A stretch of DNA of 64,000 bases from NCBI GenBank assembly GCA_905221615.1, contig CAJNDT010001321.1, forward strand, positions 1 through 64,000, given 5' to 3'. The stretch is from Symbiodinium sp. CCMP2592 (Eukaryota; Sar; Dinophyceae; Suessiales; Symbiodiniaceae). Of this stretch, positions 31,883 through 63,860 are shown piece by piece; position 1 is the first letter of the stretch; each line of letters starts with the position of its first letter. The notes beneath the pieces were generated by a model. That model worked only from the letters and a program-made list of their open reading frames with translations, searched no databases and was not told the origin of the DNA. The position numbers and the translations under genes are program-made.

Positions 31883-33650
31883 GATGTGTCAAAACGGCAC
31901 AGTTTGCAGAAAAGAAATTCTGCAACTGGCACACAACAAGACCTCGCAAAAAGAAAAACACGAACCACCAGCTTGCCACGCAATCAAGCACCAACATCCC
32001 CGGCAAGCAAATGCTGCCGAAGCACCACTACAACTCCAAGCCCACCCGAACATCAGCCTGCCAGAAACTCAACAAAAAACTGCTACATGAACCTATACAC
32101 TGCAACGGCGGTTCAACCCATCCATGTGGCGAGTTGGTCCAAGAGTCTCGCTCGTTCGTAGTTTTACCCTTCGCGAGAACTCGACTGAGCACAACCAAAA
32201 CGCTGGCGGCTCAGATACAACCGAACATGCTCCCAGAATACATACAAGAATGTCAGCGCGCCGAACCAGCCCTAACTGTCAGGACATGGCCACGCAGCGC
32301 TCTGAATTGGGACTTCACCTGACACGCAGGCTGTGTCGTGATGTATCGAGACTTACTGCTAGCCCTGTTTCCGAGGCTTTCCAACCTGTCGATTACCCAC
32401 GCAGCCGCCGGGGCCTTGGCTTCCTATGAGATGCATCCGCCTGCGACGCCAGCTCTGCTCTTCTCTGCAAGAGCAATAAAACCCTTGTGCAGCAGTACTG
32501 ACACCCACGCAAGCTTCGAAATCTGGCCTCTACAAGTCCAGAAAGGCGTCCTGGGTCTAGGATGTCAAACCCGTACTTCGCTGTCCGAACTATAGCATGT
32601 GGCCTGACCACCGGAGGACATTAACCGAGAGAAGCACACCGAGAACGGCAATTCTGCAATGCTCCTCGAGCCGGGAGCAATCATTATTCAAGTAAAAGAA
32701 TAAGCAATTAAAAGCAAACGTAAACATATCTCCCTGTTCAGACCATTACGAAGCATGCAAGGCAAACCCGCACCATCTTCGTGGACCGGGACTTCTTCGT
32801 GGGGCTTTGCACGCCGACAATGCTTCATCCTCGCGAATCCCAGCCCGTCAACTTGACAAGGCTCGGCAGAAACAACCTAACGGCACTCATGCGGCGAGAC
32901 CGCAACATGGCATCAGACTCCGCAGCACCCTTCCTGGACTACTTCTGGAGCTTACCCCGTGAGGCCTGCGGTGCACCAACTCTTGTCACAAAGGCATTCA
33001 AGCACCACTAGAGTCACGAGGTGACAAGCAATATGTGCTTTCTGACCTGACGCAGGACCAAATGACAGCCATTCAAAGAGCCGGTGTGTACGTCTACCCC
33101 GACCAGGATGAAGGCTCGGCACACAATGCATCATGCAATACACAGCAAACTTCATCCTCCCCACTGAAACAAGCAACCACGCAGCGCTACCGGACTCGTA
33201 CCGCGTCGAGACCATTCAACACTACGAACCAAGCGCTCACTGCCTTGAACAAAACACTGTAACAGAGCCCGCTGTTTCCTCAGCGAAGGCATGCCATCGC
33301 CAGAGCAAATGGCAGCCACACTGTCTTCGAGTGACCCCGAAGACATCAAAGCTGACCTGGTGCGAGTAATCAACGCCGCAAGCAACAACGCTGCAGAAAT
33401 CCATTGTAGCTGCATCACTGTGTCACTAATTCTCTCTCGACTCACGCCCAGAAGTAACCACCATCCACCGAAGCCGTCCGAGGCAACTTCCGGCTGGAGC
33501 AAGCCATCCAACACAAAGCCCGAGGACCACCACGGCCATCGTTGACACCAGATGCCAAAAGAAGACGAACCGGAAAGGCCAGGGTGAACACTAAATGCAG
33601 CGGACGAAACGCCTATCACACCACTTCGCACTCAAGACCACGCCTGTTAC
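31883..33650 (+). other. Broken or intron-split coding-like stretch
   Basis: Short + frames follow one another in different phases: 32781-33011 (ends ...PREACGAPTLVTKAFKHH), a second phase to 33262 with LSDLTQDQMTAIQRAG, then 33291-33545 with SSDPEDIKADLVRVINAASN and a basic patch PDAKRRRTGKA just after it. Each has protein-like hydrophobic spacing but none is long. Frameshift decay or several small exons would both fit. It lies upstream of the candidate polymerase and could be its N-terminal part; nothing diagnostic proves that. Confidence 0.3.
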
Positions 33651-33654
33651 ACAC

Positions 33655-33700
33655 GCAAAAATATATGCAGATATGTATACAGGCACAGTTATATATATAT

Positions 33701-33733
<33 letters not shown>

Positions 33734-34085
33734 TATACATAGATTGCTATTTCTGTGTATGTGCATAAACCTGCACAGATACATTATATATAGACAAAAC
33801 ACCTATGCACACATACATATCCACACACACACACACCTATATATATATATACGTATGTATGTATGTACGTAGTAAACCCGCAGATATATGTACATGCCTA
33901 TATAAATATAGATATGTATGTACATATACATACATCTGTAGGACGTACATTATATATCACTGATTATACTTACACAGATACATATACATATACATATACG
34001 TATACATGTACTTACACATGTACATATGCATATCCATCTGTACACGCATTTACATCTACAGTACACATAAACATATGCATGCACT
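33655..34085. repeat. Long ACAT/TATA microsatellite tract
   Basis: Five ACAT tetranucleotides in a row near 33706, alternating TATATA tracts, CACACACA near 33822, then ATACATATAC runs to about 34085. About 430 bp in total. Confidence 0.9.
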
Positions 34086-34489
34086 ATGCGTGGGTGGAAA
34101 GGTGCCAGACACGGACGTCTTCTTAGCCCCTGGCTGGCATGCAGTCGTCCCTGACCGTTTAAGCTCGTGCGATGCTCAGTCAATCACACCGGTCAAGAAG
34201 AACAGCATGCACGCACGGACGAAACCTGCAAGACGACTCTACCAAGGTGCAGAGTCGGCAGAGACCAGAAGTCCAAGCTCTTCAGCGTAGACTGGGGCAT
34301 GAAGAAGAAGAAACCACCGAGGCTGGCTGATTAGCCGCTTCCCAGACCGATGGATGAGATGTCCACTGCAGTTACCTGAAGCGAGTCTTGCGTCTTAGTC
34401 TGGCATTCGCAACTTGCAAACAGCCCAGCAGGCTGCATCTCTGGAACCCTCCCGCAGCGTCTCTCCCCTGCCATCTCGGTGTAATCTTC

Positions 34490-36754
34490 GGACGAGAATG
34501 CGGCAAACTTGTTTATTCTGCCAGAAAGCTGGGTCAGAGCAGATCTGCAACACAGGCGCTCAGCCTGTATTGGTTATGCGAGATAACCGCCAGCATCTGT
34601 AACTAATGTGCAGCTACATCCAGATGAGTGACCACGGCATCACGTAAAGTACATCACCAGCCCCTTCCTAAGAAATCTACGCCCATCAGGTTCTGGAACA
34701 CTCCGGCACCCAGCAAATAGCCTATGCCAGAATGTCGCTCCTGTTCACGCCGACCGACTTCATCCCTCTGCCGGCCGGGTCTAGCAGTGCACCAACCACA
34801 GATGAAACACCCCGAACCAACCGTCAGTCCATGAAGCATGCTCAAAAACCCTGCACCAAAACGTCGCCAAAGGCTTACACAGAAGTCTGGGTCGTACCTG
34901 ATGCACACAACACAGCCGGCGACTGCGTCACTGACGGGCACTCCGAAGTCGGCATCAAGCTCGCAGAGGACAAAGCCCCGTCGTCATGAGAGCCCTTACT
35001 TGCAAGTTTTAGTGCCTCCCACCTTACCCGCTCTAGAACACTACACTAGCTGTCCTACACAATCGTGCAGGACTTTGGATTACTCTGGAATGCACAATTC
35101 GCGGACAACGGTCGCGTACTCTACAATGCTTGCCAATTTCGCTGCCTTCTTCGAGAGACCCTCCACGACCAAGTCTTGCTCGGCAAAGGCATGCTGACGA
35201 TCACTGAAGACCCTCTCCACAAATGCAGGCAACAAAGGATTTTCAGCATATCGGTTCTCCGTTGTCTGTCCAAGATCCCCTAAGCTCGGAAAATTGTCAA
35301 CAGAGTATCGACCACCCAAGGCTCCGGCTGCGCGAGTCGTGCAGGAAACTATCCTGGCACGAAAACCATGGCAGACCACTCGCCGACCAGGCACACTACG
35401 GACTGGACCTGGTCAAGGTTGGCTTCGCCTGAGATTTCAAGTAAGGCGACTGCTGCATAACACCGAATGCCCAGGACACTGCGGCCCAGCTGGCTGCACC
35501 ACGGCTAACGCCGCAAGTGCTAGTTGCACTGCAAATGCGGGCCTGCCTCTGCAAAGACGCAGAGGCATGCTCTCACCCTCTACAACATATCGTCATCACC
35601 CGGCCAGCAGCCAGAAAGAATACCTAAACATAGAGTCCCGTCTCGATGGACACTGGCCCACAACCAGCGGGCTCGGCCTTCCCTGTTTTCTAGCACTCAT
35701 TGCAGTTGAAATGCTCAGCATGACGGGAGCTGTCTCGGCAGCACCACACGAGAGGTCCGCTTCTCCAAAAAGAGATTGTTGCGGGACATGATCAAGAAGT
35801 GCAAAGGAGCCTTGGAGGCCCGGGCAAATGAGCAATATTTGCGGGTACCGTCACTGACAGATAGCGCTTGCAAAAGGCTGAAATCCTCGCGACCTCCTTC
35901 GGCCTACCACAAAGCCTACCAACGCCAAGACCAACCGCAGCCAACTGCAAGGCCGCATGTGACACACCAGCAAAGTACACGGTCTTAATTGCCCAAGTCT
36001 GGATAAAGCATCGGCTCTCCGCTACAAACCATACCGTAAAACACGCAAGCGAGAACACGAGTCCAGCAGGCAGTGATCCCTCCGAAACCTGGCACGCCAG
36101 TGCAGAACATCGATGCCTGGCCTTCTATGCGAGTACCACAGCACAAGATCCAAGTAGTCATGCAGGACTCATCCTGCCTCACTAGCCATGATTTGCAGCC
36201 AGGCCACACGATTTATCATACCCGCTCATGCACTAGCAACAAACCGGACCTGCTTGAAAGGAGGGCCGTATCGAAGACCCGACACCAGTGACGGACCTCC
36301 TGAGAACCGAGCCAGAAGCCATGCCGTGGAAGCTGCAGAAAGGCAGCGCGGGAACAATCTCAGGGTGAAAGAGCTCGCACACCCATGCCCATGCGAACAA
36401 CCCTGGCACTCTTGTCGCATTCTTACCACCCGGAAAAGCCCAGGCACGAAAGACGCATTACTACGCGGTCGCCGACGCTTCAACGGGCGCATCACGCAGC
36501 ACAACAACAAACCACAGCTGCCTCTACCTGGCCCAGCAGCCACTGCCTTCGCGCTCAGTGACATGTGGCACACACTCAAGGTGGGATATGGCCAGTGGTA
36601 CCTCACGCGGTCAACATGAACCGCCCATGATGAACAGTGCTTCGCTGCAGAAGATGAATACGCACACAAACACACATACATGTAAAAAGATCGATGTCTG
36701 AAGGCAAAAGAGTGCCACATCATCATCGCCGGCCACGTCTGGACAGGTCGTTTC
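34490..36754 (+). other. Candidate upstream exons of an RNA-dependent RNA polymerase
   Basis: No long open frame, but pieces appear in the order expected for the cellular RdRP family (RDRP, PF05183). Near 34502 KLVYSARKLGQSRSAT resembles the ARxGQ-SxT motif. At 34921-34962 CVTDGHSEVGIKLA matches the family's (C/V)F(S/T)DGxGxIS..LA motif. In the same frame, at 35131-35142 and 35182-35193, CQFR and GKGM with a following ISVLRCLSK fit the QxRxxGxKG...lRpSMxKF block. At 35776 LRDMIKKCKGALEARAN could be the helix after it. GTGCAG|G at 35065-35071 is a good dinoflagellate-type acceptor. Stops at 34987 and 35281 need introns or are damage. These are family resemblances read by eye, not alignment scores. 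Confidence 0.4.
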
Positions 36755-37987
36755 GTGGTATGGCGCTATCCTGTAATGCTGGCTGCCGACATGGAAGTCT
36801 GGACAGCGACACCCGGTAACCGTCATTACCAAAACCTTTTTCGTTTTCGCTATAACTTTGAAAACTTACAATGTAGCAAGTCCGTCGTCCCTCAGGAAAC
36901 CACTTCCAGACAATGCCAAATACATTCCCGACAACTGCGTCATCTGCAGCCGAGAGTGCGGAGGCACCACCAGAAAGAAAAGCGTGCCGGTGACTACACC
37001 GTCGCCACTACCAGTACTATAAGCACACTCACACATCACACCGCAGTGTCCCGTTGCAACCGTGCGGTTGTGCTGCCAGGCGTCGTCAAGTTAGGAGACG
37101 GAGACTACGACGGGGATTTTATCCAGATATCAGCTTGGGTCGAATTACTGGAGTTCATGGAAAATACTCCCTCAGAGACGGACTTGCCAGCCCTCCGGAA
37201 TCTTGCCAGCAACACATGCCTTCCGACTTTCCGTGAAAAATGCCACTACCCGTGTTCGGCCGCACTCAGGCAAGCCCGCGAGAAGATCCTCACATCCCTG
37301 CCGAAAAGGACGCCGTCTCCCCTCACTTCCATAGGCAGCTACAGGCACTTCTGCTCGACAATAGAAACAAAACCAATCCGAGGTCTAGCATGCGCAATGG
37401 CAGAACGCGCGCAAGACGCAGCATACAAGTCCTTGGACCCTGCCGGGGACGGCTCACTCCTTTTAGCAGCAAAGCTCGCTCAAGTGGCCCACATGGCGTA
37501 CGATGTACCGAAGAAATACGACGCAGCACAAGTGCTAGAATTGGGCAGACAACTTCTTTCCGATGCCGGCATTGGCTGCCAAGCCCCTCGCTGCACCTCC
37601 GGTATTGTGGAAATGCTACAGCTGGAGCGCGTAAACCCAATCCCTTTGCTGCCATCCCCTGCAGACTTTCCTGGCAGACAAGCTATAGCTGGCATGGTTT
37701 GGTACCCCTACCAGGAAGTGAAACTGTCAGCAAGAGCGGGAGCTGTACTTAGGCGATGCCTACTCCAACAGAAGCCGGTCGACGACTTGGATATTGTCGC
37801 AAAGCGTGTCCTCCTCGAAGCAATAGGAGGGATCATCGCACATCGGCTGGCACACACAGCCGGCCCCATGTTGGAGCACGTGAAAGCAGGAAACGCGGAG
37901 CCCTTGATTGCTGCCGCATCATGCGAACGACGGCTGAAAGCAATCACCACCTGGTCGTACCTCCTGGACTGCCAGCTGAGGTACTGA
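36755..37987 (+). CDS. Putative cellular RNA-dependent RNA polymerase, C-terminal part
   Basis: 410-codon frame. Residues 117-121 (37103-37117) are DYDGD, the metal-binding catalytic signature of eukaryotic silencing-type RdRPs (DxDGD), preceded by RAVVLPGVVKLGDG as in the family's VVFP...GGD context. Residues 240-254, KLAQVAHMAYDVPKK, match the downstream LAxxHSxAVDxPKxG motif, here with His and the D-x-P-K core kept. Such enzymes copy RNA into double strands for RNA silencing. The first 95 residues show no family motif and may be intron or spacer; the true exon may begin near 37030. Full-length family members exceed 800 aa, so this is only the C-terminal third, and whether it joins the pieces upstream is unknown. 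The frame closes 320 bp before the next gene. Confidence 0.58.
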   Translation: MVWRYPVMLAADMEVWTATPGNRHYQNLFRFRYNFENLQCSKSVVPQETTSRQCQIHSRQLRHLQPRVRRHHQKEKRAGDYTVATTSTISTLTHHTAVSRCNRAVVLPGVVKLGDGDYDGDFIQISAWVELLEFMENTPSETDLPALRNLASNTCLPTFREKCHYPCSAALRQAREKILTSLPKRTPSPLTSIGSYRHFCSTIETKPIRGLACAMAERAQDAAYKSLDPAGDGSLLLAAKLAQVAHMAYDVPKKYDAAQVLELGRQLLSDAGIGCQAPRCTSGIVEMLQLERVNPIPLLPSPADFPGRQAIAGMVWYPYQEVKLSARAGAVLRRCLLQQKPVDDLDIVAKRVLLEAIGGIIAHRLAHTAGPMLEHVKAGNAEPLIAAASCERRLKAITTWSYLLDCQLRY

Positions 37988-38306
37988 AAACGAAGTCTGC
38001 CCGACAAGCGCACTGACAGCTGCACGTCCCCCAGCTCACTGTACATGCTGTTTCCACAGGGCAAATCCATGAACCACACCGTCGACCCAAACGAGTTCGG
38101 CAACACCACTACCTGCCGACGCCGAACTAGTCAAGGAAAAATAAGGACTCGGCATTGTCAGTGTATATTTGCGTCAAGAACAGACACCAATTCAGAGACT
38201 AACAACTACGGAAACCCTGCTCGAAAGTCTCCCAGCGACCCTCCGTGCTGTAGCGCATTGCTCAAAACAAAACAAGAACAGCCTGACTCCACCCTCGACC
38301 CTCCCG

Positions 38307-39296
38307 ATGGCTTCAACGTGCCACCTGGTCTCTGTGCTCATGGCGACATCTGGCGAAAAGCTGACTGAGCTGATAGTATCGGAAGAAAGCCACACAGTCC
38401 GACAGATCAAAGTGCACCTCGAGCAGCAGCTCGGATTCCCGCGCTACCAACAACGATTGCTCGTTCGCACGCCAAACCATGAACTCCCAGAAGCGTACGT
38501 CCTGCACGCCGGCATCAAACAGATATCCGTCGTACTAATCCCCTACATCACGGTGTCTGAAGAGCAAGAAACCGAGATGCTGAACGCAATCTACCACAGC
38601 TCGGCGAACGCCGTCGAGACCATCCTCCGACGACCCCAGCATCCAGACTCGTCCGCAGGGGAACTATGTCCATGTTGCGGCACGGACCAGCTAACAGCGC
38701 TGGAACTAGCAGCGAGGCGCAACAAGCCAGACATCGTGAAAATACTGCTGGAAGCCAGAGCAGACGTTACACAACGCGGCAACTGTTTGTCCTTGCACGA
38801 AGCAGCCGCGAACAACGGCACCGACGTGGCAAAGCTCCTGCTACAGGCCGAAGCAGATGCGAACCTGAAGTGCCCAACAACAAGCAGCACGCCGCTCCTC
38901 GAAGCCACCGGCAGGTACCACTGGCAAGTCATGCAGACGCTCCTGAACGCAAGAGCCCAGCCAAACACGGCCGGCCCAGTCAACCGCACGCCCCTGCACT
39001 ACGCCTGCACCCAGGCCGACGTACGGCCGGTACTGACGCTCATGCAGCACAACGCGAGCTTGGACGCCATCGATGACTGCGGCTACACACCTCTGACAGT
39101 AGCATTCTGGTCGGGACACGTGCAGATGCTCCAGGACTTAAGAAGCACGTTCGAGACGTCTCTGCTAGACTACAACGAATCAAACGAATCCGAAGACGCT
39201 TCCAACTCCGACCACGACGACGAGGACGAAACAGAGCCCGAGAACCTAGACGCCAAGATCGACAAGATACACGCAAGGGATCCACCACGTAACTGA
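38307..39296 (+). CDS. Ubiquitin-like/ankyrin-repeat protein, family B, copy 1
   Basis: 329 aa. Residues 1-80 are ubiquitin-like (VRQIKVHLEQQLGFPRYQQR followed by a beta-rich end), and 87-285 form about six ankyrin repeats (TPLLEA, TPLHYAC, LSLHEAAANN, DIVKILLEARADV). An ELCPCC insertion (119-124) lies before the second repeat. Residues 288-315 are an acidic Ser/Glu/Asp tail. Ankyrin repeats bind proteins; the ubiquitin-like part suggests a link to ubiquitin signalling, but no catalytic domain is present. I chose the start at 38307 because MAST begins both this and its paralogue at 50485; the frame is open upstream to 38169. Over the first 280 residues I count about 55 % identity to the paralogue with no gap. 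The upstream 30 bp are also alike (CTCCCGATGGC). Confidence 0.88.
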   Translation: MASTCHLVSVLMATSGEKLTELIVSEESHTVRQIKVHLEQQLGFPRYQQRLLVRTPNHELPEAYVLHAGIKQISVVLIPYITVSEEQETEMLNAIYHSSANAVETILRRPQHPDSSAGELCPCCGTDQLTALELAARRNKPDIVKILLEARADVTQRGNCLSLHEAAANNGTDVAKLLLQAEADANLKCPTTSSTPLLEATGRYHWQVMQTLLNARAQPNTAGPVNRTPLHYACTQADVRPVLTLMQHNASLDAIDDCGYTPLTVAFWSGHVQMLQDLRSTFETSLLDYNESNESEDASNSDHDDEDETEPENLDAKIDKIHARDPPRN

Positions 39297-39665: not shown

Positions 39666-40673
39666 ATGCTGCGGGTTCGGAGCTGTGGCGGCCAGACAAT
39701 CTGCGCCATCGACCCCGCCACCCGCACGAAGAAACGCGACCTCATCCTCGACGACCTAGCACGCACCGTGAGCATCCATCTACGCACCCCAGCAGACCGC
39801 ATCAGCATTCACTACGCCGATGGGCGAGGGCCCCTGAGCCCAACCACGACATGGGCCGACTGCACGGACCTCACCGTACTAGGAGATATGGAACTACTCG
39901 CCGTCGCTCGACATTTCCAAGCAGGCGGAGACGAGAAGCTAGCCGTCGCCATAGAACTGGAAAGGCACGCCGACGTCTGCAGTCTGCTGGACAGCCTCGT
40001 GGATCCCAACATTGCCATCGCCGAATGCAAAGACAGCCAGCCCTGCAGTCCCCTGTGCTTTGCAGCGTACACCAACTTCGAGCATGTGCAGATTGCGGAG
40101 ACGCTCGTCGCAGCCCAGGCCAATGTCGACGGCAAACACTTCGCCATCAGCCCTCTGCTGGCAGCATGCGAAAGTCGAAACACGAGAATGGCCACCTTCC
40201 TCATCCGAGCCCGGGCAGACGTGGATCGACAATCGTGGACCATGGAATCCCCACTGCTTGTTGCAGTGTCAATGAATTCGGCACCGCTAGTACGCCTACT
40301 CCTTCGACATCGTGCAAGCATCAATCAACAGGATCGCTACCAGCGCGGTCCCATGGAGCGCGCCTTTGAGCACAGGGCACCACGAGCAGCAACATGCCTC
40401 CTACGTGCAAACGCGAAGGTGCACGCCTACGCGGGCGCCAACAGCCTGCTCCACCAAGCCGCAAGGAGGGGCAGCACCACGTGGGTCAAACTGCTCGCCA
40501 GAGCGGGTTTGGCGCTTCGGAGCCAGGACGAACGAGGATGCCTACCAGTAGAAGTACGGCAGCGTTTGCCCACCTTCCAACAACGCTACCGGCTAAAGCG
40601 AAGCCTCTGCATCACGGCAACAGCCGATGGCGCCACTGCAGCAGCGAGTCGGCGCGGAGCCGCATGCGACTAA
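39666..40673 (+). CDS. Ubiquitin-like/ankyrin-repeat protein, family C, copy 1
   Basis: 335 aa. The N-terminal 80 residues are a diverged ubiquitin-like fold (MLRVRSCGGQTICAID start). Residues about 90-300 hold six ankyrin-type repeats (SPLCFAAYTN, SPLLAACESRNTRMATFLIR, SPLLVAVSMN, NSLLHQAARRGSTTWVKLL). The C-terminus has LPTFQQRYRLKRSL and then a low-complexity Ala/Arg tail. It shares its layout and the end motif (G-LP...TF--R---KR-L) with the product at 48182, so the two are distant paralogues. It follows the 38307 gene by 370 bp on the same strand. Likely a soluble scaffold protein; partner unknown. Confidence 0.85.
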   Translation: MLRVRSCGGQTICAIDPATRTKKRDLILDDLARTVSIHLRTPADRISIHYADGRGPLSPTTTWADCTDLTVLGDMELLAVARHFQAGGDEKLAVAIELERHADVCSLLDSLVDPNIAIAECKDSQPCSPLCFAAYTNFEHVQIAETLVAAQANVDGKHFAISPLLAACESRNTRMATFLIRARADVDRQSWTMESPLLVAVSMNSAPLVRLLLRHRASINQQDRYQRGPMERAFEHRAPRAATCLLRANAKVHAYAGANSLLHQAARRGSTTWVKLLARAGLALRSQDERGCLPVEVRQRLPTFQQRYRLKRSLCITATADGATAAASRRGAACD

Positions 40674-41325: not shown

Positions 41326-42290
41326 AGGAAACCCAACTAGAAAAGCTTTCCAGGAGCTGGCAATCCTTATCCACGTCCATTTAATGAAGACAACCCACCT
41401 GAACCGGGCCTTCCGGGAGCTGGCAATCCTTGTCCACGTGCATTTCATGAACGAACACCACCTGGAGAAGCCTTCCGAGACCAGGCAGCTCCTATCCATG
41501 TGCATTTTCTGAAGGAGAACCACTAGACAAGTCTGCCGGAAGCTGGCAGTCGTTGTCCTCGCGCAGCTTATGGAGAGAGAACCACCTGGAGAAAGCTGCC
41601 AAGAGCTAGCAGTCCTTATCCACGTGCATTTTAGAAAGGAAACCACGTGGAGAAGCCTTCCGAGAGCTGGCAGTCCATATTTACATTCATTTTATGAAAG
41701 AAAACCACCTACAGAAGCCTTCCGCGAGCTGACGAACCTTATTCACGTGCATTTCATGAAGGAAAGAAAGCACCTGAAGAAGCCTCCCAACAGCTAGCTG
41801 TCTTTATCCACGTACATTCTATAAAAGAAAACCACGTGGAGAAGCCTTCCGGCAGCTGGCAGTCCTTATCCACGTGCATTTCATAAAGGACAACCACTTG
41901 AAAAAGCCTTCCAAAAGCTAGCAGTCCTTATCCAGGTGCAGCTTATGAAGGAAAACCGCCTGGAGAGGCTTTTCGGGAGCTGGACATCCTTATCCACGTG
42001 CATTTCTGTTGGAAACCCACCTGCAGAAGCAGTTCGCGAGCTGGAGATCCTTATCCACGTGCATTTCATGAGGAAAAACCACCTGGAGGGGCAGTTCGCG
42101 AGCTGAATATCCTTATCCACGTGCATTTTATGAAGGACAACCACCTGGAGAGGCTTTTCGCGAGCTCGAAATTGAAGGAAGACCACCTGAAGAAGCTTTT
42201 CACGAGCTGGAAATCTTGATCCACGTGCACTTTATGAAGGCAAACCACCTGGAGATGCTTTTCGCGAGCCGGAAATCCTTATCCACATGC
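41326..42290 (+). repeat. 63-bp satellite units (ancestral form)
   Basis: GAGCTGGCAATCC starts at 41354 and 41417, a period of 63 bp. The unit contains the whole 41-bp repeat plus about 22 bp (GAGAAGCCTTCCGGGAGCTG). Units here are diverged from one another. 63 is a multiple of three, so a 21-residue repeat (RAFRELAILVHVHFMNEHHL-type) reads open through the first copies; this is a property of the period and not evidence of a gene. Confidence 0.9.
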
Positions 42291-45200
42291 ACTTTATGAG
42301 GGAAAACCACCTGGAATCCTTGTCCACGTGCATTTTATGAAGGAGAACCACCTGGAATCCCTATTCACTTGCATTTTGTGAAGGAAAGCCACTTGGAATC
42401 CTTATCCACGTGCACTTTATGAAGGAAAACCACCTGGAATCCTTATCCACGTGCATTTTATGAAGGAAAACCACCTGGAATCCTTATCCACGTGCACTTT
42501 ATGAAGGAACACCACATGATCCTTATCCACGTGCATTTTATGAAGGAAAACCACCTGGAACCCTTATTCACGTGCATTTTATGAAGGAAAACCACCTGGA
42601 ATCCCTATCCACATGCATTTTATGAAGGAAAACCACCTGGAATCCTTATCCACGTGCATTTTATGAAGGGAAACCACATGGAATCCTTATTCACGTGCAT
42701 TTTATGAAGGAAAACCACCTGGAATCCTTATCCACGTGCATTTTATGAAACAAAACCACCTGGAATCCTTATCCACGTGCATTTTATGAAGGAGAACCAC
42801 CTGGAATCCTTACCCACGTGCATTTTATGAAGGAAAACCACCTGGAATCCTTATCCACGTGTATTTTATGAAGGAAAACCACCTGGAATCCTTATCCAGG
42901 TGCAGTTTATCAAGGAAAACCACCTGGAATCCTTATCCACGTGCATTTTACCAAGAAAAACCACCTGGAATCCTTATCCACGTGCATTTTATGAAGGAAA
43001 ACCACCTGGAATCCTTATCCACGTGCATTTTATGAAGGAAAACGACCTGGAATCATTATCCACGTGCATTTTATGAAGGAGAACCACTTGGAATTCTTAT
43101 CCACGTGCATTTTATGAAGGAAATCTACCTGGAATCCTTATCCACGTGCATTTTATGAAGGAAAACCACCTGGAATCCTTATCCACGTGCATTTTATGAA
43201 AGAAAACGACCTGGAATTCGTATCCACGTGCATTTTATGAAGGAAAACCACCTGGAATCCATATCCACGTGCATTTTTTGAAGCAAAACCAGCTGGAAAT
43301 CCTTATCCACGTGCATATCATGCGGGAAAACCACCTGGAGGGGCAGTTCGCGAGCTGGATATCCTTATCCACGTGCATTTTATGAAAGACAACCACCTGG
43401 AGAGGCTTTTCGCGAGCTGGAAATTGAAGGAAAACTACCTGAAGAAGCTTTTCACGAGCTGGAAATCTTGATCCACGTGCACTTTATGAAGGCAAACCAC
43501 CTGGAATCCTTATCCACATGCACTTTATGAGGGAAAACCACCTGGAATCCTTGTCCACGTGCATTTTATGAAGGAGAACCACCTGGAATCCCTATTCACT
43601 TGCATTTTGTGAAGGAAAGCCACTTGGAATCCTTATCCACGTGCACTTTATGAAGGAAAACCACCTGGAATCCTTATCCACGTGCATTTTATGAAGGAAA
43701 ACCACCTGGAATCCTTATCCACGTGCACTTTATGAAGGAACACCACATGATCCTTATCCACGTGCATTTTATGAAGGAAAACCACCTGGAACCCTTATTC
43801 ACGTGCATTTTATGAAGGAAAACCACCTGGAATCCCTATCCACATGCATTTTATGAAGGAAAACCACCTGGAATCCTTATCCACGTGCATTTTATGAAGG
43901 GAAACCACATGGAATCCTTATTCACGTGCATTTTATGAAGGAAAACCACCTGGAATCCTTATCCACGTGCATTTTATGAAACAAAACCACCTGGAATCCT
44001 TATCCACGTGCATTTTATGAAGGAGAACCACCTGGAATCCTTACCCACGTGCATTTTATGAAGGAAAACCACCTGGAATCCTTATCCACGTGTATTTTAT
44101 GAAGGAAAACCACCTGGAATCCTTATCCAGGTGCAGTTTATCAAGGAAAACCACCTGGAATCCTTATCCACGTGCATTTTACCAAGAAAAACCACCTGGA
44201 ATCCTTATCCACGTGCATTTTATGAAGGAAAACCACCTGGAATCCTTATCCACGTGCATTTTATGAAGGAAAACGACCTGGAATCATTATCCACGTGCAT
44301 TTTATGAAGGAGAACCACTTGGAATTCTTATCCACGTGCATTTTATGAAGGAAATCTACCTGGAATCCTTATCCACGTGCATTTTATGAAGGAAAACCAC
44401 CTGGAATCCTTATCCACGTGCATTTTATGAAAGAAAACGACCTGGAATTCGTATCCACGTGCATTTTATGAAGGAAAACCACCTGGAATCCATATCCACG
44501 TGCATTTTTTGAAGCAAAACCAGCTGGAAATCCTTATCCACGTGCATATCATGCGGGAAAACCACCTGGAGGGGCAGTTCGCGAGCTGGATATCCTTATC
44601 CACGTGCATTTTATGAAAGACAACCACCTGGAGAGGCTTTTCGCGAGCTGGAAATTGAAGGAAAACTACCTGAAGAAGCTTTTCACGAGCTGGAAATCTT
44701 GATCCACGTGCACTTTATGAAGGCAAACCACCTGGAAATGCTTTTCGCGAGCCGGAAATCCTTATCCACATGCATTTTATGAAGGAAAACCACCTGGAAT
44801 CCTTGTCCACATGCATTTTATGAAGGAAAACCACCTGGAATCCTTATCCACGTGCATTTTATGAAGGAAAACCACCTGAAATCCTTATTCACGTGCATTT
44901 TATGAAGGAAAACCACCTGGAATCCTTATCCACGTGCATTTTATGAAGGAAAACCACCTGGAATTCGTATCCACGTGCATTTTATGAAGGAAACCCACCT
45001 GGAATCCTTATTCACATGCATTTTATGACAGAAAACCACCTGGAATCCTTATCCACGTGCATTTTATGTAGGAGAACCACCTGGAATCCTTATCCACGTG
45101 CATTTTATGAAGGAAAACCACCTGGAATCCTTGTCCACGTGCATTTTATGAAGGAGAACCACCTGGAATCCTTATCCACGTGCATTTTATGAAGGACAAC

Positions 45201-46760
45201 CACCTGAAATCCTTATTCACGTGCATTTTATGAAGGAAAACCACCTGGAATCCTTATCCACGTGCATTTTATGAAGGAAAACCACCTGGAATTCGTATCC
45301 ACGTGCATTTTATGAAGGAAACCCACCTGGAATCCTTATTCACATGCATTTTATGACAGATAACCACTGGAATCCTTATCCACGTGCATTTTATGTAGGA
45401 GAACCACCTGGAATCCTTATCCACGTGCATTTTATGAAGGAAAACCACTTGGAAATTTTATCCACGTGCATTTTATGAAGGAAAACCACCTGGAATCCTT
45501 ATCCACGTGCATTTTATGAAGGAAAACCACCTGGAATCCTTATCCACGTGCATTTTATGAAGGAAAGCCACCTGGAACCCTTATCCACGTGCATTTTATG
45601 AAGGAAAGCCACCTGGAATCCATATCCACGTGCATTTTTTGAAGCAAAACCAGCTGGAAATCCTCACCCACGTGCATTTTATGACGGACAACCACCTGAA
45701 AAGGTTTTTCACGAGCTGGAAATCTGGATCCACATGCACTTTATGAAGGCAAACCACCTGGAGCTGCTTTTCGCGAACCGGAAATTGAAGGAAAACCACC
45801 TGAAGAAGTTTTTCACGAGCTGGAAATCTGGATCCACGTGCACTTTATGAAGGCAAACCACCTGGAGCTGCTTTTCGCGAACCGGAAATCCTTTCCACGT
45901 GCATTTTGTTTGTGAAGGACAACCACCTGGAATCCTTGTCCACATGCATTTTATGTAGGAGAACCACCTGGAATCCTTATCCACGTGCATTTTATGAAGG
46001 AAAACCACCTGAAATCCTTATTCACGTGCATTTTATGAAAGAAAACCACCTGGAATCCTTATCCACGTGCATTTTATGAAGGAAAACCACCTGGAATTCG
46101 TATCCACGTGCATTTTATGAAGGAAACCCACCTGGAATCCTTATTCACATGCATTTTCTGAAGGAAAGCCACCTGGAATCCCTATCCACGTGCATTTTAT
46201 GAAAGAAACCCACCTGGAATTTTTATTCACGTGAACGAAAACCACCTGGAATCCTTATCCACGTGCATTTTATGAAGGAGAACCACCTGGAATCCTTATC
46301 CACGTGCATTTTGTGAAGGAGAACCACTTGGAATCCTATTCATGTTCATTTTATAAAGGAAAACCAGCTGGAATCCTTATCCACGTGCATTTTTATGAAG
46401 GAAAACCACCCGGAATCCTTCTCCACGCGCATTTTATGAACGAAAACCACCTGGAATCCTTATCCACATGCATTTTATGAAGGAGCGCCACCTAGCATCC
46501 TTATCCACGCACATTTTATGACGGAAAACCACCTGGAATCCTTATCCACGTGCACTTTATGAAGGAAAACCACCTGGAATCCTAATCCACGTGCATTTTA
46601 TGAAAGAAAACCACCTGGAATCCTTATCCACGTGCATTTTATGAAAGAAAACCACATGATCCTTATCCACGTGCATTTTATGAAGGCAAACCACGGTCCT
46701 TATCCTAATGCATTTCGCGAAGGAGAGCCACCTGCAGAAGCTTTCCAAGAGCCCCCGATC
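42290..46760 (+). repeat. 41-bp satellite array, block 1
   Basis: About 100 units of 41 bp (CACCTGGAATCCTTATC then CACGTGCATTTTATGAAGG); CCACCT recurs at 42430 and 42471. Each unit carries the palindrome CACGTG. Occasional 63-bp units remain (42070-42300, 43320-43500, 44560-44760, 45680-45890). A segment of about 1.2 kb is repeated almost perfectly with a period of 1,231 bp. The array decays near 46760, where longer units reappear. Confidence 0.95.
42301..44762 (+). repeat. 1,231-bp higher-order duplication in the 41-bp array
   Basis: Thirty units are duplicated: GGAAAACCACCTGGAATCC followed by TTGTCC occurs at 42301 and 43532, and the rare AACGACCTGG at 43041 and 44272, both 1,231 bp apart. 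Private unit variants (CATGATCC, CCAAGAAAAACC, GAATTCGTATCC) keep the same order. The start of a third copy is present at 44545-44760. One 63-bp unit was shortened in the middle copy. Confidence 0.93.
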
Positions 46761-48181: not shown

Positions 48182-49237
48182 ATGCTCCACTTCCGCACCG
48201 TCTCAGGAGAACTACTGTGCAGCTGCACCCTAGCGGAGTGCGCCCCTCCTTTCGGCGACGTCGCACTCGAAGAAACACTGCGCAAATATTTGCACAACAC
48301 CCTTGGCATGCCAAGATACCGAACGAAGTTCCTCATCCACAACAACGTCGTGAGCAAAAACGACAGCTGGAGCACCCTCACCGTCTGGACACACCATCAA
48401 ACTCCCGTAGACATCCACGTGATCATGGCAAGCTGCACGAAAGAACATGGAGGTGAGCTCTCGTCGGCAATCAAAGCAAAGGACGCGACTCGACTGAATT
48501 GCTTGCTGGAGTCAACCGCGGACCCCAACCAGACCATCCTAGCTCGGATACAGCACTATCCCGCTGCGTACATGAAGCCCCTGCAATACGCCGTCTGGCT
48601 CCGAGCAAAGAAGACCGTCGACATGCTTCTCCTCGCAAAAGCAGACGTCAACAACGTCAACAGAGACACGCCGCTGACAATCGCGTGTCGAAATGGCGAT
48701 CTGAAAATGACGCGAGACCTTCTGCGCTCAGGCGCCGCCATCAACCTCGAAGACGCTGCAGGAAACGCACCTTTGCACATCTCGGTGGCGAGAAGCTCAA
48801 CACGCATGGTCAAGTTACTACTCCAATGCGCAGCCAACCTCACACTGCGAAGAAGCTTCGACGGACTCACTGCCCTGGCCGTAGCGGTATTGCACAGCCG
48901 GTCCAAGATAGCACGACTTCTCCTACAGCGCGGCGCTATTCAGCACGAGCCCAGAACGTCTCGCACAGCCTTGCATGTCGCAGCCGCGCAAGACCAAGCA
49001 CCCTTCATGCGCATGCTAACCAGAGCAGGAGCCGACGTCAATGCTACAGACAGCCAAGGTAACCTGCCGGCGCAGCTCCTGCCGAAAGCCAAGACCTTCA
49101 AGCATCGATTCACTTGCAAGCGGCTGCTGACACACGCCGGAAACGACGAACCAGCCGCAAGCGTCTGCCAACGCCCTCAAACAGCGAGTCCCCAAGCCCA
49201 AAACGCGACTCAGCTACACAGACCAGTGCACTCGTGA
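48182..49237 (+). CDS. Ubiquitin-like/ankyrin-repeat protein, family C, copy 2
   Basis: 351 aa. Residues 1-85 are ubiquitin-like (MLHFRTVSGELLCSC; LRKYLHNTLGMPRYRTKFL). From about 90 come six or seven ankyrin repeats, several near consensus (TPLTIACRNGDLKMTRDLLR, APLHISVARSSTRMVKLLLQ, TALHVAAAQDQAPFMRMLTR). The end motif NLPAQLLPKAKTFKHRF and CKRLL parallels the product at 39666. The start at 48182 gives the ubiquitin-like domain its first strand. A long + frame in another phase (48499-49062) is a shadow of it. It probably acts as a soluble binding protein; partner unknown. Confidence 0.87.
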   Translation: MLHFRTVSGELLCSCTLAECAPPFGDVALEETLRKYLHNTLGMPRYRTKFLIHNNVVSKNDSWSTLTVWTHHQTPVDIHVIMASCTKEHGGELSSAIKAKDATRLNCLLESTADPNQTILARIQHYPAAYMKPLQYAVWLRAKKTVDMLLLAKADVNNVNRDTPLTIACRNGDLKMTRDLLRSGAAINLEDAAGNAPLHISVARSSTRMVKLLLQCAANLTLRRSFDGLTALAVAVLHSRSKIARLLLQRGAIQHEPRTSRTALHVAAAQDQAPFMRMLTRAGADVNATDSQGNLPAQLLPKAKTFKHRFTCKRLLTHAGNDEPAASVCQRPQTASPQAQNATQLHRPVHS

Positions 49238-49948: not shown

Positions 49949-50484
49949 GTATAATACCCGTCCCAACGCAAGAAAGGTCAGCACGAGACCGACGAGAAGC
50001 CGCACGGATCACGCTCAATGAAGGCGACTCCCTCATGATCGGCGATGCCAACAGTACAGCGCAGCAGGCAAAACGGGATCCGAGTCGAGCGGACACACAA
50101 CAGCACGGCTCACACGGACCAACGACGAAACATGCCGGCCCTCCAACCATGTATATAGCAGCCCCGTAAAATGAAGTGTCAGATTGGCACTCCCAAAGCA
50201 GCATGCACCCAATCGAGCCTAATCCTCAAGACAAGCTATAACACAAGACAACGATACCTATGGCAAACTTGTCCAACCGTCACGCTCCCCTCGCCAAGGC
50301 TACCGCGGCAATACCACGAGCACCAAACCCAGACAGCTAGCAGATAAAAAAAAAAGCAGCATTGCCGCACCACGTGAGACCAGTGGCAGTACGTGCTGGC
50401 AAATGTGCAAACGATCCTCAATGCTTCAGCAGACTTGCTCAAGACAAAACAAAGGACAGCCTTCCGCCGCCGTCGACTCTCCCG

Positions 50485-51465
50485 ATGGCCTCTACGCACC
50501 GCTTAATCACAGTACTCATGGCGACATCCGGCGAAAAGGTGACCGACGTACAAATTGCAGAAGAACGCAACACGATCGGCCACGTCAAAGAACAACTTCA
50601 AGCGCAACTCGGAATCCCACGCTTCCAGCAACGACTACTCCTTCACAAGGAGAGCCAGCAGATGCCAGAAGAGTGGGTCCTCGACGTCAACATCAAGCAG
50701 GTGTTCCTGGTCCAAGTCTCCTACATCACGGTGTCTCAGCAGATGGAATTCGAGCTACTGAACGCAATCAGCAAAAAGCCGACGCACGACGTTGAGGCCA
50801 TCCTCCAGCGACCGCAGCATCCCGACTCGTCGACGGGTGAGTTATGTCAAACTTGCGGCGGCGCGCAGACAACGGCACTAGAACTGGCAGCCAGGTGCAA
50901 CAGAGCCGAACTAGTGAAGATAATGCTAGAAGCCAGGGCAAACGTGCACAGGCAAGGCAGCAACCTGTCCTTACACGAAGCAGCCGCCAATAACAACTGC
51001 GACATAGCCGACATGCTCCTACAGGCCAAAGCAACCCCAAATGTCAAGTGCCCAGACACAGGCACCACGCCGCTCATCGAAGCCACCAGCAGGCACCACT
51101 GGGAAATCATGCACACTCTCCTAGAAGCAAAAGCCGAGCCCAACGCCAGCGATCCACTCGGCATTACACCGCTCCACTTCGCCTGCGGCCAGGAAAGCAA
51201 ACACCCAGTGCTGGCACTGTTAGAACACGGCGCAAGTCTCAACGCCAGAGATGAATGCAACGACACACCTATGGACGTGGCTCTCTGGACGGACAACCTG
51301 CACATGCTAGAAGACGTGAGAGACAAGGCCTACGAGTTTGCACACAGCTGCTGCGAATCAAACGAATCCGAAGAAGCTTCCATCTCCGAGGACACCAACG
51401 ACGACAGGATGAGCCTCGACGACTCAAACACCGACAACAACGGGACACATCGCCCAGGCAGCTGA
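50485..51465 (+). CDS. Ubiquitin-like/ankyrin-repeat protein, family B, copy 2
   Basis: 326 aa. Ubiquitin-like residues 1-80 (IGHVKEQLQAQLGIPRFQQR), ankyrin repeats about 87-285, CQTCGG at 121-126 in the place of CPCCG in copy 1, then an acidic tail from 289 (CCESNESEEASISEDTNDD). Collinear with the 38307 product without any gap for the first 300 residues, with LSLHEAAANN and QHPDSS-GEL unchanged. The conserved Cys pair in an otherwise variable loop could bind a metal, but only two to three Cys are present. It ends 4 bp before the next ATG, the closest gene spacing in the window. Confidence 0.88.
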   Translation: MASTHRLITVLMATSGEKVTDVQIAEERNTIGHVKEQLQAQLGIPRFQQRLLLHKESQQMPEEWVLDVNIKQVFLVQVSYITVSQQMEFELLNAISKKPTHDVEAILQRPQHPDSSTGELCQTCGGAQTTALELAARCNRAELVKIMLEARANVHRQGSNLSLHEAAANNNCDIADMLLQAKATPNVKCPDTGTTPLIEATSRHHWEIMHTLLEAKAEPNASDPLGITPLHFACGQESKHPVLALLEHGASLNARDECNDTPMDVALWTDNLHMLEDVRDKAYEFAHSCCESNESEEASISEDTNDDRMSLDDSNTDNNGTHRPGS

Positions 51466-53119: not shown

Positions 53120-56100
53120 ACTACCAGTCGGAATCCTGATTCACGTGCATGCCATAGAGGACACCACCTGGAATCCTTATCCACGTGCATTCTATATAGA
53201 AAACCACATGGAATCCGTATCCACGTACATTTCATGAAGCAAAACTTCCTGGAATCCATATCCACGTGCATTTTATGAAGGAAAACCACCCGGAATCCTT
53301 ATCCACGTACATTGTAGAAAGAAAAAAACCACATGGAATCCTTATCCACGTACATTTTATGAAGAAAAACCACGTGGAATCCTTATCCACGTGCATTTTA
53401 TGAAGGAAAACCGCCTGGAATCCTTATCCACGTGCATTTTATGAAGGAAATTCACCTGGAATCCTTACCCACGTGCATTTTATGGAGGACAACCACTTGC
53501 AATCTTTATCCACGTGCATTTTATGAAGGAAAACCACTTGGAGTCCTTATCCACGTGCATTTTATGAAGCAAAACCACCTGAACTTCTTATCCACGTGCT
53601 TTGTATGAAGGAAAACCACCTGGAATACTTATCCACGTGCATTTCATAAAGGAAAACCACTTGAAATCGTTATCCGCGTGCATTTTATGAAGGAAAACCA
53701 CCTGCAACTCGCATCCACATGCCATGAAAACCACCTGCAATCTGTAGCCACGTGCATTTTATGAAAGAAACCCAACTGGATTCCTTATCCACGTGCATTT
53801 TATGAAGGAAAACCACTTGGAATCCTTATCCACGTGCATTCTTTGCAGAGAAACCACCTAGAATCTTTATCCACGTGCATTTTATGAAGAGAAACCACCT
53901 GCAATCCTTATCCACGTGCATTTTATGAAGAGAAACCACCTGGAATCCTTATCCACGTGCACTTTATGAAGGAAAACCATCTGGAATCCTTATCCACGTG
54001 CATTTTATGAAGGAAAACCACCTGGAATCCTTATCCATGTGCATTTTATGAAGGAAAACCACTTGGAATCCTTATCCACGTGCATTGCATGAACGAAAAA
54101 CATTTGGAATTCCTATCCACGTGCAGTTTATGAAGGAAAACCACCTGGAATCCTTATCCACGTGCATTTTATGAAGGACAAGCACCTGGAATCCTTATCC
54201 ACGTGCCTTCTATGAAGGAAAACCATCTGAAATTGTAAACACCTGGAGTCCTTATCCACGTGCATTTTATGAACGAAAACCGCTTGGAATCCTTATCCAC
54301 GTGCATTTTATGAAAGAAAACCACCTGGAATCCTTATCCACGTGCATTTTATGAAGGAAAACCACCCGAAATCCTTATCCACGTGCATTGCATGAAAGAC
54401 AACCACCTGAAATCCTTATCCACGTGCATTTGAAGAAGGAAAACCACCTGGAATCCTCATCCACGTGCATTTTGCGAGAGAAAACCACCTGAAATCCTTA
54501 TCCACGTGCATTTGAAGAAGGAAAACCACCTGGAATCCTTATCCACGTGCATTTTGTGGAGGAAAACCACCTGGAATCCTTATCCACGTGCATTTCATGA
54601 AGGAAACCCACCTGGAATCCGTATCCACGTGCATTTTATAGGAAAACCACCTGGAATCCTTATCCACGTGCACTTTATGAAACAAAACCACCTAAAATCC
54701 GTATCCACGTAGATTTTATGAAGGAAACCCACCTGGAATCCTTCTCCACGTACATTTTAAGAAGGAAAACCACCTGGAATCCTTACCTTCGTGCATTTTA
54801 TGAAGCAAAACCAACTGGAATCCGTATCCACGTGCATTTTATGAAGGAAAACCACCTGGAATCCTTATCCACGTGCATTTTATGCAGAGAAACCACTTGG
54901 AATCCTTATCCACGTGCATTTTATGAAGGAAAACCAATTGGATTCCTTATCCACGTGCATTTTATGAAGGAAAACCACCTAGAATCCTTATCCACGTGCA
55001 TTTTATGAAGGAAAACCACTTGGAGTCCTTATCCACGTGCATTTTATGAGGAAACCACCTGAGTCCTTATCCACGTGCATTTTATGAAGAGAAACCACCT
55101 GGAATCCTTATCCACGTGCATTTTATGAAGGAAAAACAATTGGATTCTTTATCCACGTGCATTTTATGAAAGAAAACCACCTGGAATCCTTATCCACGTG
55201 CATGTTATGAAGGAAACCCATCTGGAATCCTTATCCACGTGCATTTTATGCAGAGATACCACCTGGAGTCCTTATCCACGTGCAGTTTATGAAGGAAAAC
55301 CACCTGAAATCCTTATCCACGTGCATTCTATGCAGGAATACCACCTGGAATCCTTGTCCACGTGCATTTTATGAAAGAAAACCACCTGGAATCCTTATCC
55401 ACGTGCATTTGAGGAAGGAAAACCACCTGGAATCCTTATCCACGTGCATTTTATGAAGGAAAACCACCTGGAATCCTTATCCACGTGCATTTTATGAAGA
55501 AAAAGCACCTGAAATCCTTATCCACGTGCATTTTATGAAGCAAAACCACCTGGAATCCTTATCCACGTGCATTTTATGAAAGAAAACCACCTGGAATCCT
55601 TATCCACGTGCATTTGAGGAAGGAAAACCACCTGGAATCCTTATCCACGTGCATTTGAGGAAGGAAAACCACCTGGAATCCTTATCCAAGTGCATTTCAT
55701 GAAGGAAAACCACATGGAATCCTTATCCACGTGCATTGTATAGGAAAACCACCTGGAATCTTATCCACGTGCATGTTATGAAGGAAAACCACTTAAAATC
55801 CTTATCCACGTGCATTTCATGCAGGAAAACCACATGGAATCCTTATCCACGTGTATGTTATAGGAAAACCACCTGGAATCCTTATCCACGTGCATTTTAT
55901 GAAGGAAGCCACCTGGAATCCTTATCCACGTGCATTTTATGAAGGAAACCACCTGGAATCTTTATCCACGTGCATGTTATAAAGGAAAACCACTTGGAAT
56001 CCTTATCCACGTGCATTTTATGAAGGAAAACCGCCTGGAATCCTTATCCACGTGCATTTTATGAAGGAAACCCACCTGAGATCCTTATCCACGTGCATCT

Positions 56101-57700: not shown

Positions 57701-57776
57701 CCAAAGTTCCCCAGCACGTCGCAGTGGCTCCAGACGTTCCCACGCAATAGCAACTCGTAGCAAAGACCACGAAGCC

Positions 57777-59555: not shown

Positions 59556-59671
59556 GAAAACTGCACCGCGCATAAAGCGAGCACAACAGAAAAAGGCACC
59601 AAGTCAAGCACAGCTCCCATAGCAAAGAAACCGCAACACATGCTCTCGCGTGACAAAACATCTCACAAGCT

Positions 59672-59684
59672 CGCTTGGCTCAAG
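59672..59684 (+). promoter_or_regulatory. CGCTTGGCTCAAG motif upstream of family F copy 2
   Basis: Second occurrence of the motif at 52301, here with the final G, so TTGGCTCAAG matches the last ten bases of the dinoflagellate spliced leader. It lies 52 bp before the start at 59737. The bases 5' of it match the leader only in part. Confidence 0.33.
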
Positions 59685-59736
59685 CACCACCAGCTGGACA
59701 CTCCAAGCCCAGAACCCAAGCCCGCGTGAAGGTATC

Positions 59737-63323: not shown

Positions 63324-63860
63324 ATGGTCACCAAAGAAGCTTGGCTAGCCCTGATTCTCAGCGGTGCCAAGACCATGGAAATACGGAATCGCCCAGCACA
63401 AGCCGGCCCAATCTGGATCGGTCACGGAGGCAAGATCTATGCTTCTGCTGAAATTACGGAATGCAGAGAGATGACGCAGGAGGAGTTCGAAAAGACAAGA
63501 GCGCAGCACCGGCACTTGAGCACAATGAGCAGCGGCAGCAAACTGTACGGCTTGCTGCTAGCGAACATCGTCCAACGAACCCAGCCAACGGAGTACTACC
63601 AAAAGCCAGCATCGGAACTCTGGACTTTCTTCAAAACGGCACCGGACGACAAGATCCCGCGCAGAACAGCCTCAAAGCGAACAGCGACCATGCCGGCCCT
63701 GAGGGATCAGCAAGAAGCCGGCAACTCCGCAAAAGAGACAGAAGATGGACAGCTTCCAGAAGACGACGACAAAGATGAAGAAACGCACGGAGCTGGAAGC
63801 CGCAAAAAGCAGACAAGAAAGAAACGCCGGTCTGCCATACCAACACTTCCGCTCACGTGA
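63324..63860 (+). CDS. ASCH-domain protein (PUA-like fold)
   Basis: 178 codons. Residues 1-25 (WLALILSGAKTMEIRNRP) match the ASCH signature W--LI--G-KT-E-R, followed by GPIWIGHGGKIYASAEI and later YGLLLANIVQ and LWTFFKTAP, all in the family's order, completing the small beta-barrel by residue 105. ASCH domains resemble RNA-binding PUA domains and are thought to bind RNA or modified bases. The last 70 residues are disordered and charged, with an acidic stretch and RKKQTRKKRRS, a likely nuclear signal. The frame is open upstream to 63153 without an ATG and reads protein-like just before (EQEEVDEATRASEDD), so the gene probably starts in an upstream exon and this ATG may be internal. Confidence 0.72.
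   Translation: MVTKEAWLALILSGAKTMEIRNRPAQAGPIWIGHGGKIYASAEITECREMTQEEFEKTRAQHRHLSTMSSGSKLYGLLLANIVQRTQPTEYYQKPASELWTFFKTAPDDKIPRRTASKRTATMPALRDQQEAGNSAKETEDGQLPEDDDKDEETHGAGSRKKQTRKKRRSAIPTLPLT

Follow-up and report, generated by a model that had tools for sequence, protein, structure and literature searches.

A candidate QDE-1/RDR-type RNA-dependent RNA polymerase gene, apparently intact, from a divergent multi-copy subfamily in Symbiodinium sp. CCMP2592

Does a stretch of dinoflagellate DNA with scattered motifs of a cellular RNA-dependent RNA polymerase (RdRP) hold one working gene, the remains of one, or no such gene at all? We address this question for positions 1 to 64,000 of contig CAJNDT010001321.1 of Symbiodinium sp. 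CCMP2592 (C1321:1-64000; herein the window, meaning this whole stretch of 64,000 nucleotides), in which a preliminary description made from the letters alone had placed a split or decaying silencing-type RdRP gene at 34490-37987. At a probability of nearly 0.8, we read the region as one apparently intact nuclear gene for an RdRP of the QDE-1/RDR type (PF05183), belonging to a divergent multi-copy subfamily and presumably acting in silencing. The observations behind this reading are homology, block order, a spliced frame that is open in the model, the metal-site residues, relatives in the genome and genes of RNA interference (RNAi).

Homology and exon structure of the locus

Every motif of the preliminary description was recovered on the + strand in the order claimed, split over two reading frames (Table 1). 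Two positions needed correction: CVTDGHSEVGIKLA occupies 34924-34965, a shift of 3 nt, and ARKLGQSRSAT occupies 34520-34552 rather than starting near 34514, a shift of 6 nt. The catalytic residues and the downstream D-x-P-K motif are kept, as had been proposed: GDGDYDGD (37094-37117) carries all three aspartates of the DxDGD metal site of cellular RdRPs, and AYDVPKK (37496-37516) has the counterpart AYDCPKK in a relative, L033.

Using a spliced protein-to-DNA aligner written for this analysis, we threaded the window onto L022, an intronless relative described below, and onto profiles of the relatives from which the window had been left out. The resulting model B (33521 to 37987) comprises 18 exons, 17 introns (57-190 nt, plus one of 518 nt) and 766 codons including the terminal stop, with 0 internal stops and 0 frameshifts. 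It supports the proposal of one gene whose exons are interrupted by introns, some of them with GC and GA donors in the model. PMC6123633 reports the use of GA and GC donors in Symbiodinium gene prediction, and PMC6123633 and PMC7789003 treat the dinoflagellate donor types GT, GC and GA.

The stretch 33501-37600 obtained a threading score of 723 with the relatives' profile. For comparison, the scores of 40 dinucleotide shuffles averaged 104 (standard deviation 12) and peaked at 141; the reverse strand scored 98, and scores of 112, 141 and 138 were obtained for three further stretches of the window that carry genes. The region thus stands well apart from chance. The four top-scoring decoy proteins from the 40 shuffles had no Pfam match, and the spliced window protein matched PF05183 at E=1e-12 (48 bits, cut-off 23.8), with residues 121-523 on profile positions 123-461 in one stretch. 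A profile match spanning both the DG and the DYDGD blocks, the check suggested at the outset, was therefore obtained with the spliced protein. Support independent of the exon model comes from the threading score relative to the shuffles and from matches of L022 without splicing (47% identity at 36278-36577 and 51% at 37064-37204); together with the Pfam match, these uphold the assignment to cellular silencing-type RdRPs.

The introns were also approached with the splice rules switched off, in which case the aligner opened 26 gaps across 32.5-38.6 kb. Compared by eye, 10 of the 17 model B introns recur among these blind gaps at equal length, shifted by at most 15 nt. Dinoflagellate-type introns follow an AG/G acceptor rule (the slash marks the exon border). 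The test was made on the 17 gaps between 34.1 and 37.3 kb, and 10 of them could be placed as G[TCA]..AG/G within 12 nt at unchanged length; random placing gave 0.87 on average and reached 10 in 0 of 5000 sets. Examined for introner elements, the 19 modelled introns shared no sequence beyond one 11-base match and had no terminal inverted repeat longer than 5 bases.

A profile of the six core blocks of the subfamily, one of which is the window's own, matched seven distinct Protein Data Bank (PDB) sequences at E<1e-3, all of them cellular RNA-dependent RNA polymerases; QDE-1 came top (2.2e-5), and up to E=1 the only others were two RPAC1 chains (0.75 and 0.91). When six subfamily sequences, the window's among them, were compared profile to profile with two of RDR2, the probability was 94% (E=1.2e-7). 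In multiple alignment with RDR2, DG falls on CVTDGHSEVG, QIRYGGYKG on CQFR...LGKGML, the second lysine on CRKLSW, NPCLHPGD on RYPVMLAAD, DLDGD on DYDGD and AVDFAK on AYDVPK; the DG block, the Q-x-R...KG block and the second lysine, of the other barrel, are thereby present in order. CQFR...LGKGML is the counterpart of QIRYGGYKGV with the first conserved lysine, and the role of the two lysines in CQFR...LGKGML and CRKLSW is taken here to be that of the conserved pair. The alignment corrects one block: ARKLGQSRSAT, listed among the blocks at the outset, is not the LGQ block, which is ARMGQLFSASR in plant RDR2 and falls on ARMSLLFTPTD (34726-34758). ARKLGQSRSAT is ruled out in this capacity and sits in a plausible exon.

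The subfamily core has invariant residues absent from both RDR2 sequences, for example W-R preceding a proline, and lacks the KGERPHPNECSG stretch of RDR2; its five other members share 40-56% identity with the block of the window. As to a place in the QDE-1 or the RDR-alpha/gamma clade, QDE-1 is the best PDB match, and a small tree built from the short metal-site block, with weak support (0.38-0.94), sets exons from contigs C1691 and C1447 of the same genome beside RDR2 and QDE-1, and the window subfamily separately.

At its 5' side the gene extends beyond the interval first proposed, which was too short: spliced alignment to L022 places homologous exons upstream to ~32.87 kb. In these models the gene appears to start at or before ~32.9 kb and to end at 37987. 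Of the two N-terminal exons, that at 32870-32963 is found in two of four L022 runs, the other two beginning at 32926 and the profile models placing this end elsewhere; nothing upstream of it is reliable in the models. The exon at 33056-33091 ends at 33083 in the profile models. At the 3' end, a relative aligns to the end of the window's 433-residue stop-to-stop open reading frame (ORF; query 341-433, 42% identity).

A continuous 410-aa protein (36755-37987) was considered and rejected. Following L022 through it requires frame changes at the gaps 36808-36895 and 36964-37079, and a 2-bp deletion breaks the frame in three of seven near-identical copies. According to the model, this ORF would consist of exons plus read-through introns.

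Relatives in the genome and signs of constraint on the gene

The genome searched comprises 1.098 Gb in 5383 contigs. The 433-aa ORF gave 33 matches on 25 contigs, namely the window's own, seven near-identical and 17 divergent ones; L022 added seven contigs (C1413, C1460, C5180, C291, C2979, C802, C113) and a Pfam family search six more (C1691, C1447, C4940, C4985, C3223, C4915). This makes at least 38 contigs with a match (E up to 0.001), among them the seven with near-identical copies, in a tally where some contigs may carry pieces of one gene or short matches only. Further types of RdRP are represented by DLDGD exons on C1691 (L029) and C1447 (L030), with PF05183 scores of 110.8 and 87.9 bits, a DFDGD exon on C3223 (L032) and a DYDGD exon on C4940 (L031). 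No second RdRP copy was found in the window by tblastn of pieces of the region or by threading three other stretches.

L022 has a 749-aa frame without introns, which scores 68.1 bits on PF05183 (E=8.4e-19; cut-off 23.8) and in the PDB comes closest to 7W82, an RNA-dependent RNA polymerase (E=3.9e-5). Besides L022, two frames of L017 reach the cut-off (48 and 23.8 bits) among ten relatives' frames scanned with Pfam; L020 (10.9 bits) and L015 (15.9 bits) stay below it, and five have no RdRP match. L022 (4575-6821) has zero introns over 749 codons versus about 17 in the window model; spliced-leader relics, a sign of retrocopying, were found within 3 mismatches neither in the window nor in loci L001-L028, which include L022. 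L025 (C2657) is a copy of L022 in damaged form: 239 of its residues align at 87% identity, and its threaded alignment contains four frameshifts and a stop.

Twelve of the 17 divergent loci score clearly above the reverse strand, and ten of these also entered the profile. The remaining five (L009, L011, L016, L018, L023) have profile scores at or close to the reverse-strand control and were kept only as short local matches. Models of the relatives were built with stricter intron penalties, since a low penalty gave spurious long models, though core-block letters of L015 come from a looser model. Five relatives are unbroken and have the three aspartates (L015, L017, L020, L021, L022), L020 and L021 looking like copies of one another, and it is with these intact relatives that the window gene, as modelled, appears to group.

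Seven other contigs carry copies of the gene that are 99.4-99.9% identical over the compared stretches of 2.5-9.9 kb, two spanning the whole gene model and the rest parts of it. Across the gene span the copies show 22 distinct substitutions, of which 21 were classified: 11 intronic and 10 exonic (six synonymous, four replacements, 0 nonsense); the unclassified one, at 34019, is intronic in the model. With an expected replacement share of 0.72-0.76, four or fewer of ten has a P of 0.017-0.036, and the rough omega is 0.21-0.26. A single indel separates the copies within the gene: three of the seven lack 2 bp at 37265-37267. This deletion, the one that breaks the 410-aa ORF, lies inside the modelled intron 37198-37269 and spares the frame of model B. 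Because the carrier contigs measure 24-67 kb and some copies are cut at contig ends, the copies may be true duplicates or uncollapsed assembly. The suggestion that the gene is split or decaying is not borne out by these data; the modelled frame is free of internal stops and frameshifts, with the caveat of the aligner given below, and the differences among copies suggest constraint.

Proposed function and rival explanations

On the best reading, the gene would still work, as one member of an RdRP subfamily that has diverged and expanded. Removal of ~17 short introns would yield a chain with, in order, LGQ-like, DG and Q-x-R...KG blocks with the two lysines, a PSDV-type block, DYDGD and D-x-P-K. 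Paired barrel domains would hold the RNA, with a metal at DYDGD as the active site, and the enzyme would copy single-stranded into double-stranded RNA (dsRNA). An RNase III or Dicer would cut the dsRNA, and Piwi or Argonaute proteins would silence transposons or viral RNA.

Possible components of such a pathway are encoded in the genome: Piwi-domain (PF02171) matches occur on six contigs and a match to the RNase III domain (PF00636) on one. The exact spliced-leader sequence of dinoflagellates has 429 genome matches and 0 in the control, which marks the genome as that of a dinoflagellate. PMC3853145 lists one Dicer, three Argonautes and HEN1 in Symbiodinium microadriaticum, three RdRP terms being absent from its main text; PMC6027434 mentions a protein with an RdRp domain in Lingulodinium and Symbiodinium transcriptomes; and PMC5245829 reports for Lingulodinium an RNAi test on one gene that gave no evidence and small RNAs undetectable by staining. 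Dinoflagellate RNA silencing is poorly understood, with Dicer and Argonaute reported and an RdRp-domain protein mentioned in a review. Searches of open-licence papers turned up no account of an RdRP family expanded in dinoflagellates.

A wider, tentative reading, to which we give somewhat less than even odds, is that dinoflagellates carry an expanded and fast-diverging arsenal of silencing RdRPs, unannotated, with recent copies, frequent loss and changing intron content. Annotation would have missed it through short exons, non-canonical introns and single exons below the Pfam threshold, and the window gene would be a living member making dsRNA from transcripts of transposons or RNA viruses.

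Several points weigh against an intact RdRP gene. The relatives onto which the exon model was threaded are themselves PF05183 matches, so that the Pfam score of the spliced protein is not independent of them. Stops and frameshifts carry a penalty in the aligner, which can also bypass some via introns, and their absence is therefore partly by construction. No Pfam RdRP match was obtained for nine ORFs of the window (E up to 1) or for ten pieces cut from the region (E up to 10), and phmmer found no PDB match for the 433-aa stop-to-stop ORF (36686-37984). The models' borders disagree at ~34.8, 35.2, 35.6-36.3, 36.34-36.44, 36.97 and 37.2-37.34 kb and at the N terminus, and neither a start codon nor a start exon of the gene was found. 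Seven of the 17 tested blind gaps have no G[TCA]..AG/G placement, and nine gaps, eight upstream and one downstream, lie outside the tested span; only one of the 17 window introns matches introns of relatives in place and phase, eight relatives being compared. The profile-profile match to RDR2 is confined to 78 columns around the metal site; the remaining blocks were equated through the multiple alignment. The selection signal comes from 10 substitutions among copies that are possibly assembly duplicates. The lack of a direct Pfam match for any single piece is what could speak for motifs matched by chance, or for a viral or retroelement polymerase. We regard this as barely credible: threading lies far above the shuffles, the relatives and the spliced protein match PF05183, the PDB matches at E<1e-3 are all cellular RdRPs, and neither phage records nor viral contigs gave a match to the 433-aa ORF.

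More serious, and still improbable in our judgement, is a recently inactivated pseudogene with its coding blocks still visible and its expression lost. Several relatives have gone this way: seven of the 12 that align clearly are damaged (L010, L012, L013, L014, L019, L024, L025; threaded models), aligning in part only, with a frameshift, a stop or a changed metal site that has lost aspartates. The missing start exon points in the same direction, as does the setting of the window copy among satellite arrays on a 65 kb contig, with the other copies on contigs of 24-67 kb. Against inactivation stand the model free of stops and frameshifts, both of which the aligner penalises, the three aspartates all kept, the low rough omega with its P value, and the position of the sole indel in a modelled intron. 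Somewhat less unlikely is an intact and active gene with a role outside small-RNA silencing, such as another kind of RNA copying; this shares the gene identity with our preferred explanation and differs from it in role, so the two confidences overlap. In its favour, the subfamily departs from the plant and fungal enzymes, the genome has further RdRP types, and the authors of PMC6396948 speculate that intact RdRP genes of Branchiostoma act outside RNAi. Against it, other RdRPs with this fold are generally linked to silencing, and the genome has Piwi and RNase III genes.

If the gene is a working RdRP, its multi-copy divergent subfamily would supply genes with which to test small-RNA amplification in dinoflagellates, and its targets. 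The case also shows that piecewise searches can miss genes with short exons and non-GT introns.

Feature coordinates, remaining window and known systems

Table 1. Motifs, exons and introns of the candidate RdRP gene, in window positions
Feature	Position	Strand	Basis and remarks
DYDGD	37103-37117	+	letters read directly
KLAQVAHMAYDVPKK	37472-37516	+	letters read directly
CQFR	35131-35142	+	letters read directly
GKGM	35182-35193	+	letters read directly
Tentative N-terminal exon ...APFLDYFWSLPRE	32870-32963	+	spliced alignment to L022; matches its LSDIFWSFNAS
Tentative N-terminal exon DQMTAIQRAGVY	33056-33091	+	counterpart of QRQGLLRDAGVY in L022; right border uncertain
Exon with basic KRRRTGK stretch	33521-33583	+	L022 and profile models; left end 33519-33530 across models
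Exon ...APGWHAVVPDRLS	34102-34166	+	L022 and profile models
Exon ...KLFSVDWGMKKKKP	34247-34321	+	L022 and profile models
Exon containing ARKLGQSRSAT (34520-34552)	34432-34555	+	L022 and profile models
Exon with ARMSLLFTPTD (34726-34758)	34690-34783	+	RDR2 alignment; end 34773 in one model
Exon with DG block CVTDGHSEVG (34924-34953)	34883-34968	+	profile model, RDR2 alignment; start 34873 in one model
Exon with CQFR (35131-35142) and LGKGML (35179-35196)	35071-35208	+	profile model, RDR2 alignment; end 35237 in one model
Exon with CRKLSW (35340-35357), second conserved Lys counterpart	35304-35417	+	start 35321 in one model
Exon DTAAQLAAPRLTPQVLVALQMRAC...	35475-35564	+	tblastn/L022 and profile models
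Linker region	35755-36165	+	model B exons 35755-35817, 35877-35939, 36070-36165; borders uncertain, models disagree
Linker exon before GTKDALL	36261-36342	+	profile models; single exon 36261-36580 in one model
Exon GTKDALLRGRRRFN...FALSDMWHTLK	36444-36580	+	profile models; unspliced L022 match
Intron GT..AG/G, phase 0	36581-36703	+	all models; place and phase shared with L020, L021, L010
Exon with VVWRYPVMLAADMEVW (36755-36802), counterpart of VTKNPCLHPGDIRVL	36704-36807	+	all models, RDR2 alignment
Exon PLPDNAKYIPDNCVICSRECG, frame other than that of the 410-aa ORF	36896-36963	+	tblastn and models; end 36981 in one model pair
Intron, GC donor, AG/G acceptor	36964-37079	+	once removed, CSRECG runs on into GVVKLGDGDYDGD in the register of L022
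Exon with metal site GDGDYDGD (37094-37117)	37080-37197	+	letters and profile model
Short intron GA..AG/G	37198-37269	+	model B; other profile models use 37285-37338
Last exon, AYDVPKK 37496-37516, stop codon 37985-37987	37270-37987	+	relative matches to end

The window around the gene is rich in repeats. Positions 1-26000 are mostly self-repeated, in units of ~1.55 kb judged by offsets, with 84-98% likeness in the listed self-matches, and arrays of one 41-bp repeat (AATCCTTATCCACGTGCATTTTATGAAGGAAAACCACCTGG) at 42274-46694 and 53130-57701 flank the genes at 47-53 kb. Between 26000 and 30000 the GC skew, mostly positive before, becomes negative and the AT skew climbs from near 0 to ~0.2, a pattern expected where unidirectional gene clusters switch. 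Ankyrin-repeat genes come in pairs (38169-39296 with 50362-51465, 39666-40673 with 48182-49237), the first pair having a weak ubiquitin-like stretch ahead of the repeats, below the Pfam cut-off; threading found no RdRP copy at 48.0-52.1 kb. Adjacent ORFs at 57777-58817 and 59650-60747 encode visibly similar proteins with no Pfam match, and the ORF at 63324-63860 has an ASCH domain (PF04266, E=4.7e-6).

Among known systems, the closest by the core profile is QDE-1 (2J7N and 7Y7P from Neurospora, E=2.2e-5 each; 5FSW from Thielavia). QDE-1 and the subfamily share the GGDYDGD metal site and an ADFWG/SDMWG block upstream; the similarity is weak (27 bits over the core), the N-terminal region is unmatched, and the QDE-1 stretch between the R-P and DYDGD blocks (STKGDVPLAKKLSGG) differs in the window subfamily. 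Plant RDR2 (7ROZ, 7EU0 and 7W84, the last from maize) has the same block order in multiple alignment, with window counterparts for ARMGQLFSASR, DG, QIRYGGYKG, LK, NPCLHPGDIRVL, DxDGD and AVDFAK. Unlike RDR2, the window has DYDGD for DLDGD, VVWRYPVMLAADMEVW for VTKNPCLHPGDIRVL and DVPKK for DFAKTG, and is without KGERPHPNECSG.

Within the same genome, the C1691 and C1447 exons also belong to PF05183 but carry DLDGD where the window has DYDGD. The RdRP-domain proteins of the Symbiodinium and Lingulodinium transcriptomes (PMC6027434) likewise represent a dinoflagellate RdRp domain, a likeness by description. The bdelloid rotifer clades RDR I/II, for which PMC7943196 gives 38.9 copies on average and discusses a defence against transposable elements, offer a parallel by description from animals: there, as here, divergent RdRPs have undergone a lineage-specific expansion.

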